From IMG/VR virus record IMGVR_UViG_3300008113_005150, positions 1-29,034 of that record: a stretch of 29,034 bases of DNA; one strand, given 5' to 3'. The notes below the pieces were generated by a model. It did no database searches and was not told where the DNA came from. It worked only from the letters and a program-made list of their open reading frames with translations. Below are positions 12,525 to 14,117 of the stretch, piece by piece. Made by a program: the position numbers and the translations under genes. How positions within the stretch are numbered: position 1 is the stretch's first letter; each line of letters begins with the position of its first letter. Origin of the DNA: a virus.

Positions 12525-12553
12525 TTGTCAAATATATTTAAATTTGATATAAT
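12525..12553 (+). promoter_or_regulatory. hsp20 promoter
   Basis: -35 TTGTCA (12525-12530), 17-nt spacer, extended -10 TGA-TATAAT (hexamer 12548-12553). This is among the best consensus promoters in the window. The predicted start is near 12560, at the base of the leader hairpin. TCAAAT-N8-ATTTGA (12528-12547) forms an inverted repeat over the spacer. Confidence 0.75.
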
Positions 12554-12554
12554 A

Positions 12555-12587
12555 ATATACGGGTCGTCCAACAGGAGGCCCGTATAT
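12555..12587 (+). promoter_or_regulatory. 5'-end hairpin in the hsp20 leader
   Basis: ATATACGGG (12555-12563) pairs with CCCGTATAT (12579-12587); inside the 15-nt loop TCC and GGA can pair further. The hairpin lies at the 5' end of the predicted mRNA, upstream of the real Shine-Dalgarno AAAGGAGG (about 12601-12608), and is not followed by a U tract, so it looks like an mRNA-stabilising or regulatory hairpin rather than a terminator. Confidence 0.6.
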
Positions 12588-12615
12588 TAATTTATTCGCT
12601 TAAAGGAGGAATAAA

Positions 12616-13035
12616 ATGGTACTAACTCGTACTCTGGATCTTTTTAATGATCCTTTCTTTATTGGTTTCAATCATACATTGGACCGCTTAAATTCAGTTC
12701 ATACAGCAGCAATTCATCAATCTTATCCACCTTATAATATTTTTAAGGTAGAAGAAGATGTATTTCGTGTCGACCTAGCATTAGCTGGGTTTGACAAGAA
12801 AGATGTGGATGTAACTGTAGATAATGGAACTCTTATTGTTAAGGGTGAAATTTCTACAGAAGATAATGTTGAAGCACTGCATAAAGGAATTGCTACCCGT
12901 AAATTCACACGCACATTTGCGCTTGGGGAATACATGGAAGTAACTTCGGCTGAATTTAAGAATGGTATGCTCGGAATTACAGTAGAGCGTATTGTCCCTG
13001 AAGATAAGAAGCCAAAGACAATCAAGATCAAATAA
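12616..13035 (+). CDS. hsp20: small heat shock protein (Hsp20/alpha-crystallin)
   Basis: 139 residues. After a short hydrophobic N-terminus (LFNDPFFIGFNHTLDRL) the alpha-crystallin domain runs from about residue 42 to 130: FRVDLALAGFDKKDVDVTVD, LIVKGE, and the hallmark AEFKNGMLGITVERI; the tail PKTIKIK contains an I-x-I motif for oligomer contacts. sHsps are ATP-independent holdases. Hsp20 genes are known cargo of aquatic phages. All six arginine codons are CGT or CGC, unlike most of the window, hinting at high expression or different origin. Strong Shine-Dalgarno AAAGGAGG. Confidence 0.93.
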   Translation: MVLTRTLDLFNDPFFIGFNHTLDRLNSVHTAAIHQSYPPYNIFKVEEDVFRVDLALAGFDKKDVDVTVDNGTLIVKGEISTEDNVEALHKGIATRKFTRTFALGEYMEVTSAEFKNGMLGITVERIVPEDKKPKTIKIK

Positions 13036-13043
13036 GGTATAAT
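13015..13043 (+). promoter_or_regulatory. promoter of the structured leader / luciferase-like gene
   Basis: -10 TATAAT at 13038-13043 just after the hsp20 stop, with a partial -35 AAGACA at 13015-13020 (17-nt spacing). It would start an RNA near 13050, exactly where the first leader hairpin begins. Confidence 0.55.
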
Positions 13044-13047
13044 ATAA

Positions 13048-13156
13048 GTCTGCACCCTTTCATCGGGGAGTCGCAGATATACGGGCCATTCGTGGCTGCC
13101 GTAGGATCCACCTGAGCATGTGGATAAACTGCTCACCAAATAGATAAGAGAATGTT
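13048..13156 (+). ncRNA. structured RNA leader with probable H-type pseudoknot
   Basis: Three elements lie in about 90 nt. (1) TCTGC (13049-13053) pairs GCAGA (13073-13077), with inner CCC/GGG. (2) ACGG+GCCA (13081-13088) and TGGC..CCGT (13093-13102) close a TTCG tetraloop. (3) ATCCAC (13106-13111) pairs GTGGAT (13120-13125), while TGAGCA in its loop (13113-13118) pairs TGCTCA downstream (13130-13135): 1-nt, 1-nt and 4-nt loops, ideal H-type geometry. The RNA has its own promoter and ends about 20 nt before the TTG start of the monooxygenase gene, so a riboswitch-like or translational control element is plausible. I do not recognise a known riboswitch class. Confidence 0.6.
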
Positions 13157-13948
13157 TTGAACTTTCATTGGATGGCTAGACAACCTGAGATGTCTATAGA
13201 AGTTTTAGACGCCATGATTAAAAAATTAGATTCTATTGGCTACGAGTCTGTTTTATTGTTGTATGGAAGTAAAATACCAGACTATTGGATTAAAGTAGCA
13301 AGGACATTAGATCCTAGCCATAAAATAAAATATATGTTTGCAATGAGGCCGTACGCTGTAAGCCCAGATCATTTATACATAATGACAAAATCTTTTAATG
13401 AAATACAAGAAGATAGGCTTATGATTAATTTTGTTTCTGGTGAATTCTACCCAGAAGAAATTGATCCAACAGACGCAGATGGAATAGATATTAGCATAGA
13501 AGATAAAGAAAAAAGAAGGTTATACGTTAAAAAATTTGTTAAAAAATATGTAGGCTTATTTGAAGATATAGATGTCAAGCCTATTGTTTTGGTTAGTGGT
13601 GGCGCACCTACTGCAGTTAAAACAGCAAGAGACTATGCAGACTACTCTCTAGTTATGTATAAAGATTTTCTATTTAAACCTGAGACTTTTCATGGTATAG
13701 ATAAAGTAATGATTAATTTTTCTGTACTTATGAGGCCAACTATGCAAGAAGCTGAAGAGGCGGTGGCTAAATTAAGCGACATTGATAAGATGAATACTGT
13801 ATACGGCACCCAATCTGACATAATCGATGCCATTAACATATTGAAAGATTATGGAATTAATGATATCCTTATAGATAGAGCACACTGCGAAGAAGATGCA
13901 GACTACATACATGATTTTGTAAAGGAGCTAATAGATGCCAGCGTATGA
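13157..13948 (+). CDS. luciferase-like flavin-dependent monooxygenase (SsuD-type)
   Basis: 263 residues. Start taken as TTG at 13157 because NFHWMARQPE is the first barrel strand; an ATG at 13152 stops after two codons. Features of the LLM fold: AMIKKLDSIGYESVLLLYG, PWIVA-like YWIKVARTLDPSHKIKYMFAMRPYAVSPD, and the strand FNEIQEDRLMINFVSGE, closely paralleling alkanesulfonate monooxygenase. It is shorter than SsuD (about 380 residues), lacking part of the C-terminal barrel. These enzymes use FMNH2 and O2 to oxidise substrates such as sulfonates; no flavin reductase is seen here. The next gene (FmdB-like) overlaps by 14 nt. Confidence 0.78.
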   Translation: MNFHWMARQPEMSIEVLDAMIKKLDSIGYESVLLLYGSKIPDYWIKVARTLDPSHKIKYMFAMRPYAVSPDHLYIMTKSFNEIQEDRLMINFVSGEFYPEEIDPTDADGIDISIEDKEKRRLYVKKFVKKYVGLFEDIDVKPIVLVSGGAPTAVKTARDYADYSLVMYKDFLFKPETFHGIDKVMINFSVLMRPTMQEAEEAVAKLSDIDKMNTVYGTQSDIIDAINILKDYGINDILIDRAHCEEDADYIHDFVKELIDASV

Positions 13949-14117
13949 TTTTTCTTGTATAGAATGTGATTACACAAAAGAAGTTACCAGGCCAATATCT
14001 AAAGCATCAGAGCCAGAACGATGTGAAAAGTGTGGTTATGAAATGGTAAAAGTTTTTGGCACATTTGGCATTCAGTTTAAAGGTACTGGGTTTTACAAAA
14101 CAGACAATGCTAAGTAG
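13935..14117 (+). CDS. FmdB-family zinc ribbon protein
   Basis: 60 residues beginning MPAYDFSCIECDY with the matching pair CEKCG (C8, C11, C30, C33) and the tail GTFGIQFKGTGFYKTD, the classic FmdB/CxxC_CXXC zinc ribbon with its conserved GxGFYxTD end. In bacteria the family was first noted as a putative regulator of formamidase/amidase genes; the true role is unclear. Here it overlaps the monooxygenase gene, suggesting they form one unit under the structured leader. Confidence 0.9.
   Translation: MPAYDFSCIECDYTKEVTRPISKASEPERCEKCGYEMVKVFGTFGIQFKGTGFYKTDNAK

Follow-up and report, generated by a model that had tools for sequence, protein, structure and literature searches.

The window analysed here is the 29-kb stretch of DNA (29,034 nt) of the IMG/VR phage record IMGVR_UViG_3300008113_005150. 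In it, an Hsp20/alpha-crystallin gene (12616–13035, plus strand; Pfam PF00011, E = 3.3e-18; phrog_432, E = 4.2e-39) is followed on the same strand by a gene for an SsuD-like protein of the luciferase family, which starts with TTG at 13157 and runs to 13948. This gene had been called SsuD-type in an earlier note on the locus, and phmmer bears this out with a match to alkanesulfonate monooxygenase (E = 1.5e-7); the L001 homologue matches Pfam Bac_luciferase with E = 2.2e-6, slightly short of the curated cut-off. The region between the two genes is headed, on the plus strand, by a promoter-like pair, with a −35 AAGACA (13015–13020) and a −10 TATAAT (13038–13043) separated by 17 nt, which overlaps the end of the HSP20 gene and whose TATAAT is kept in relatives. 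Downstream of it are a hairpin, module A (CTGCACCC...GGGGAGTCGCAG, CTGC...GCAG, 13050–13076), a UUCG-capped hairpin, module B (TACGGGCCATTCGTGGCTGCCGTA, followed by GGAT, 13080–13103), and an H-type pseudoknot (13108–13135), all on the plus strand. The earlier note had placed the promoter-like pair, a first stem, the UUCG hairpin, the pseudoknot, and the TTG start in this region, and in the sequence they are all where it claimed. The leader is genuine; the pseudoknot is its widespread part, and the remainder is lineage-specific.

The leaders of the freshwater HSP20 lineage, in the window (13050–13103) and in 13 relatives, carry swappable structured modules between the TATAAT and the pseudoknot. 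Module A recurs in L048, L089, L105, L108, L299, L313, L328, L344, L345, L397, L411, L468, and L487, while module B is found in relatives in both shorter and longer versions. The exchangeable modules are CTGCACCcc..GGGGAGTCGCAG, GTCGGGGGAGACAGCGAC..TAAATAACTGG, and GTCC..GGACACGGGC.AATAGTTACGCC, and the L345 leader combines several of them. The leader modules of the window have no match in Rfam. A separate structure is present in the leader of the HSP20 gene itself (12549–12590), where a strong hairpin, ATACGGG..CCCGTAT, directly follows a TTGTCA/TATAAT promoter-like pair; this hairpin is perhaps heat-sensing or regulatory.

The pseudoknot, delimited by a structure scan and by covariation, is 28 nt long. 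Stem S1 is formed by CCAC (13108–13111) and GTGG (13120–13123), and stem S2 by TGAGCA (13113–13118) and TGCTCA (13130–13135). L1 is a single C (13112) across the deep groove of S2, L2 is the single base at the stem junction (13119), which is T here and T, A, C, or G elsewhere, and L3 is ATAAAC (13124–13129), which passes over S1 and of which AAAC is conserved. The stretch immediately 3′ of the pseudoknot (13136–13142) is free of G. We define the family by a covarying S1 of 4 bp, C at L1, an S2 of 6 bp with the form T....A, one nucleotide of any kind at L2, and nnAAAC at L3. The window sequence matches this definition at every position, and we have very little doubt about the structure of the window pseudoknot or its membership of the family. 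The earlier note had described two stems of 6 bp with loops of 1, 1, and 4 nt. The 6-bp S2 and the single-nucleotide L1 and L2 stand, but the conserved S1 is only 4 bp and L3 is 6 nt, since a fifth S1 pair is formed in 146 of 385 instances, at the shuffle level (mean, 153). Positions 13106–13107 can pair with 13124–13125 to give two additional A–U pairs, which are lineage-specific and optional.

Both stems covary, as expected for an RNA H-type pseudoknot, which is what the earlier note had proposed. The S1 pairs are kept in 380, 383, and 308 of 385 instances, compared with shuffle means of 148, 178, and 180. When the inner bases of S2 were left free and the original sequence was excluded, all four inner pairs were kept in 59 of 70 distinct matches, with many different sequences. 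Across 110 distinct sequences, 96.3% of the cells pair and covariation scores 0.507, where shuffles reach 0.149 and slid controls no more than 0.122. A structural scan gave 512 instances in 3.6 Mb of fetched sequence, a count that is biased because the loci were fetched with the motif, and 0 in a Markov null of the same size; the covariation at pattern-free positions is unbiased. These results exclude chance more firmly than did the argument of the earlier note, that two interlocked 6-bp complements within 30 nt are unlikely to arise by chance.

The loops are constrained very differently from each other. A base other than C at L1 was found in 1 IMG/VR contig, compared with at least 119–120 contigs with C per scan, while a base other than T at L2 was found in at least 120 IMG/VR contigs (A in 97, C in 20, and G in 4 of 121 distinct sequences). 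The middle A of the AAAC in L3 is changed in 13 IMG/VR contigs, and 0 of these 13 has a complete S1. The pattern scans are skewed to the TGAGCA form, so that all such counts are lower bounds and the consensus at fixed positions is partly imposed. In luteovirus-type triplex pseudoknots, the L1 cytosine and the L3 adenines are conserved and L2 is free. Constraint on L1 and L3 together with a free L2 is thus the pattern expected of a triplex-stabilised H-type pseudoknot, and we infer that the conserved loops stabilise the knot through base triples, as in the luteoviral pseudoknots; a knot so stabilised would resist mechanical unfolding.

The window pseudoknot is one of at least 500 instances of a hitherto undescribed phage RNA family. 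When the window leader was compared with phage records by blastn, only the pseudoknot was matched, in the roseophages SIO1, P12053L, and ICBM1-3, where it is located between the genes for class II ribonucleotide reductase and glutaredoxin. The exact core pattern occurs in at least 119 IMG/VR contigs, and the range was widened by relaxing one stem at a time and by BLAST with other S1 sequences. The carriers are phages of Roseobacter-type bacteria, cyanobacteria (Nostoc, Synechococcus), mycobacteria, arthrobacters, staphylococci (the phiETA group), lactobacilli, bacilli, and gut Bacteroidales; by name, they also include crAss-like phages and phages of Anoxybacillus, a deep-sea thermophile, and Moorella, besides those of Lactobacillus, Staphylococcus, Bacillus, Mycobacterium, and Arthrobacter. 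Mycobacterium phage Labelle and Arthrobacter phage Molivia are two of the carriers. The window record has a single copy, and the records as a whole have 1–5, widely spaced. The earlier note had not recognised a known class, and Rfam yields none. Rfam 15 has no match in the window leader at E ≤ 5, with covariance models that ignore pseudoknots and for which a 28-nt knot is hard; at the gathering threshold, these models leave the motif unmatched in L226 and L230 and give no match in seven loci. Relaxed thresholds likewise yielded no convincing match to the motif. The fold type is familiar, but no earlier description of the motif was found in the open-access PMC literature, nor any counterpart of the family and its placement. 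Its small size and its pseudoknotted fold may be why the family has so far gone unnoticed.

The position of the pseudoknot relative to the genes is informative. In a non-redundant set of 362 instances, S1 begins 0–3 nt past the upstream stop codon in 0, 4 nt past it in 4, exactly 5 nt in 54, and 6 nt in 18, followed by a tail of larger distances. The 54 instances at the mode of 5 nt are out of 211 within 40 nt of the upstream stop, and the mode accounts for 37 of 141 when only distinct upstream proteins are counted; 112 of the 362, about a third, lie 40 nt or more past the stop. A hold-out set of 94 later-fetched instances, in which L2 is not T, repeats the edge, with 15 at 5 nt, 18 at 6 nt, and 0 at 0–4 nt. 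In three instances, the distance is −8, and the gene ends at a TGA inside S2. When a stop codon occupies the A site, a first base pair 5 nt further on lies immediately beyond the point at which the ribosome unwinds mRNA. Downstream start codons are spread broadly, over 10–39 nt, and the position of the knot is fixed more sharply by the upstream stop than by the downstream start. In the window, 72 nt separate the knot from the HSP20 stop, a promoter-like pair of its own precedes it, and the TTG start comes 21 nt past its end; it is therefore a 5′ leader element there as well.

The flanking genes, identified by simple open-frame calls, are diverse. Upstream are genes for head morphogenesis and minor head proteins, ribonucleotide reductase, Hsp20, Gp2.5-like single-stranded DNA-binding protein (SSB; 5 of 101 sampled cases), and many unknowns; downstream are genes for thioredoxin or glutaredoxin, scaffold, PhoH, helicase, kinase, and zinc-ribbon proteins, unknowns, and, directly, tRNAs. 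In several phages of Gram-positive bacteria, the knot is at the junction before the scaffold and capsid genes. A tRNA starts 3–12 nt past the knot in 13 of 362 instances and 3–13 nt past it in 11 of 94 in the hold-out set, mostly tRNA-Asp. Of 1810 control windows, 2 contain a tRNA within 60 nt. The knot end is 3–8 nt before a tRNA-Asp gene in L306, L331, L337, L314, L401, L405, L431, L446, L469, and L473. In the window, a small FmdB-like zinc-ribbon gene lies past the SsuD-like gene (13935–14117); a gene of this kind is found directly after the knot in many relatives.

The knots are inside co-directional operons, with co-directional neighbours at the usual rate. No intrinsic terminator-like hairpin was found within 100 nt past the knot in the phage contigs, all 6 that were found being in GTDB contigs, which indicates that the knot is usually internal to operons. 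Across the family, G is scarce 3′ of the knot, at 2–9% at positions +1 to +7. A G at +1 would be expected to pair with L1 and spoil the knot, and G at +1 or +2 could likewise pair with L1 or S1; such misfolding would explain much of the G depletion. A run of five or more T's occurs within 12 nt past the knot in 46 of 361 instances, compared with 7 of 361 further downstream.

What is the function of this pseudoknot? The knot sits in co-directional phage operons, at a distance that keeps it free of the ribosome terminating on the upstream gene, and what we observe points to a device that has to remain folded beside that ribosome and for which the following sequence is immaterial. Since the family recurs in phages of very different bacteria, usually just past a stop codon, its role is probably that of an all-purpose boundary in phage mRNAs and not that of a switch dedicated to the adjacent enzyme gene. 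Of the possible roles, we tentatively favour that of a compact mechanical barrier, which would set off one segment of a phage mRNA from the next and block exonuclease decay. One small triplex pseudoknot common to tailed phages of many bacterial phyla may then be a general exonuclease-proof, or ribosome-proof, mRNA boundary and correspond, in viruses of bacteria, to the exonuclease-resistant RNAs known from RNA viruses; we regard this as plausible, if short of probable.

In the proposed mechanism, the knot would act in cis in a polycistronic mRNA. The terminating ribosome and the knot would be edge to edge, leaving little naked RNA past the reading frame. Cutting or processing of the transcript would follow immediately downstream of the knot, either within the G-poor stretch or, where a tRNA comes next, by RNase P, which would leave so short a tail that few 3′ exonucleases could engage it. 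With only a short tail behind it, the knot might then block 3′-to-5′ exonucleases, protecting the upstream RNA, and the two sides of the junction would thereby have separate fates. In the window, where the knot ends the promoter-led structured leader between the HSP20 and SsuD-like genes, it would shield that RNA segment. We count in favour of an mRNA boundary the covariation of the stems, the constrained L1 and L3, the hard edge at 4–5 nt, the closely following tRNAs, the diversity of flanking genes, and the operon-internal sites; against it, the window knot is also a 5′ leader element, and about a third of the instances are 40 nt or more from the upstream stop. Furthermore, the frequent site between portal or minor-head genes and scaffold genes could equally reflect a benefit to the downstream gene, and placement immediately beyond the terminating ribosome would also fit a role in translation.

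Such a role would be that of an insulator of translation, in which the knot meets a ribosome with the stop codon in the A site and either helps it to terminate or be recycled, or keeps ribosomes that have terminated from slipping on into the next cistron or a tRNA. The mode at 5 nt and the hard edge are consistent with this, recoding pseudoknots being in contact with the ribosome at this spacing, and so is the placement before tRNAs and independent ribosome-binding sites. However, about a third of the knots lie 40 nt or more beyond the stop, a few instances have a gene end inside the knot, and classical readthrough is unlikely; we consider this role rather unlikely, though not negligible. Readthrough recoding as a general role is itself unlikely, as there is no spacer consensus, the stops are mainly TAA, and in-frame extensions are barely longer (median, 9 codons) than those in the other frames (5 codons). 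Alternatively, the nascent knot may modify host RNA polymerase, enabling it to transcribe through untranslated stretches, tRNAs, and terminators, by analogy with HK022 put and the Bacillus EAR RNAs. Host RNA polymerase is a target common to all these hosts, and processive antitermination would accord with knots that are operon-internal, precede tRNAs, occur in 1–5 copies per record, and, in the window lineage, lie near a promoter-like pair. However, a purely cotranscriptional role needs no hard exclusion from the footprint of the terminating ribosome, and 13% of the knots have a T-run directly behind them, making antitermination unlikely in our estimation. The T-runs and the G-poor 3′ flank might instead point to a transcription pause site or a terminator in which S2 replaces the terminator hairpin. 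This is very improbable, since 87% of the knots lack the T-run, the sites are operon-internal among genes that are co-directional at the usual rate, S2 is only 6 bp, and misfolding would account for much of the G depletion; an intrinsic terminator as the general role was rejected on the first two of these grounds.

The earlier note had proposed a metabolite riboswitch for the SsuD-like gene, with flavin, sulfur, or SAM-related sensing. A compact pseudoknot with invariant loop bases, 17–39 nt ahead of many start codons, would be in keeping with a riboswitch. However, the same knot precedes varied genes that share no pathway, and often a tRNA, its position is tied to the upstream stop, it is rare outside phages, and no Rfam riboswitch matches it, although these models ignore pseudoknots. 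We therefore give the riboswitch hardly any credence; nor do the downstream genes show any theme toward flavin, sulfur, or SAM. A docking site for a phage or host protein, whether a gp32-type translational operator, an RNA chaperone site, or a type III toxin decoy, is a somewhat better candidate, but still a doubtful one. The operator of gene 32 in T4, T2, and RB69 resembles the family as a phage mRNA H-type knot with coaxial stems and an unstructured A+U-rich 3′ side (PMC3014915), comparable to the G-poor 3′ flank here, and Gp2.5-like SSB genes are among the upstream neighbours. However, the gene 32 knot is 67 nt ahead of gene 32, is reported absent from RB49, and serves autoregulation by the SSB gp32 (PMC3014915), whereas the knots of the family are spread over many phages, have varied neighbouring genes, and take their position from upstream stop codons; no SSB-type gene, in whose 5′ leader the operator lies, is among the listed downstream families. 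Pseudoknot antitoxin mimics are also known in phages: the ToxI type III antitoxin RNAs and the pseudo-ToxI of PhiTE are small triplex pseudoknots carried by some phages (PMC3475682). ToxI, however, consists of 36-nt tandem repeats beside a toxin gene, from which the RNAs are cleaved out, while the copies here are single or widely spaced, one in the window and 1–5 per record, and do not form such a tandem array with a toxN-type gene at its side. Against docking in general, the S1 sequence is free, no gene is common to all carriers, and the flanking genes are too varied.

Other known systems share one feature or another with the proposed mRNA boundary. The luteovirus-type (BWYV) pseudoknots have the same L1 cytosine, free single junction base, and A-rich L3, with the triplex in the present family being putative, but they stimulate −1 frameshifting inside genes, whereas the family knots follow stop codons. 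The STAXI motif is a pseudoknot, often with UUCG loops, near DNA-handling genes (PMC2864571), but it consists of two to three tandem knots, while the family knots are not tandem and are unmatched by Rfam at the tested loci. The L17 downstream element and other 3′ UTR elements are, like the family, structured RNAs past a stop codon (PMC2864571), but the L17 element is linked to one ribosomal protein gene in a narrow bacterial group. With the exoribonuclease-resistant RNAs of flaviviruses and plant viruses, the likeness is in the proposed work only, as a mechanical barrier to an exonuclease; these stop a 5′-to-3′ exonuclease with a ring fold, whereas the family is proposed to act against 3′-to-5′ exonucleases. 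A palindrome acting at the DNA level, as an operator or phage promoter, is disfavoured by the covariation of two interlocked stems, the constrained L1 and L3, and the rarity of long open frames covering the knot (5 of 362 on one strand and 5 of 362 on the other). CTGAGC...AAACT presumably resembles the complement of the 16S 5′ end, and CTGA/GAAAC the hammerhead core, by chance; both resemblances were dropped because the S1 and S2 sequences vary.

An element that is kept across phages of Gram-positive bacteria, Gram-negative bacteria, and cyanobacteria, with a free S1 and near-invariant loops, must serve something common to all these infections. If it is an exonuclease boundary, it would explain the different lifetimes of neighbouring genes on one phage transcript, and it would offer synthetic biology a 28-nt stabiliser. 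Whatever its role, the family is a large addition to the RNA catalogue, and as its carriers include the long-studied phages phiETA and SIO1, experiments on that role could begin immediately.

In 84,980 prokaryote genomes, the roseophage form was never matched exactly and the general form gave 33 matches. Two of the 33 have CRISPR-repeat flanks, a third (L234) is alike by eye, and several are beside portal, scaffold, or head genes; a plasmid search gave 9 weak records. This rarity, and the CRISPR spacers and phage head genes among the matches, led us to reject a host gene element. The CRISPR-type repeats around knot copies in host contigs (L263, L245, and L234) show that hosts have acquired spacers from the knot. 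However, only part of the 33 matches is assigned and six GTDB contigs have a terminator behind the knot, so some copies may have a host-side use. In the bacterial contigs L239, L244, L257, and L260, the knot follows an apparent gene whose end is zinc-ribbon-like (HCSACGSIR) and precedes an intrinsic terminator. Finally, copies in Chaseviridae phages of Erwinia and E. coli (L228 and L229, near 3001) have only two S1 pairs followed by a G·A mismatch and may be divergent members of the family.
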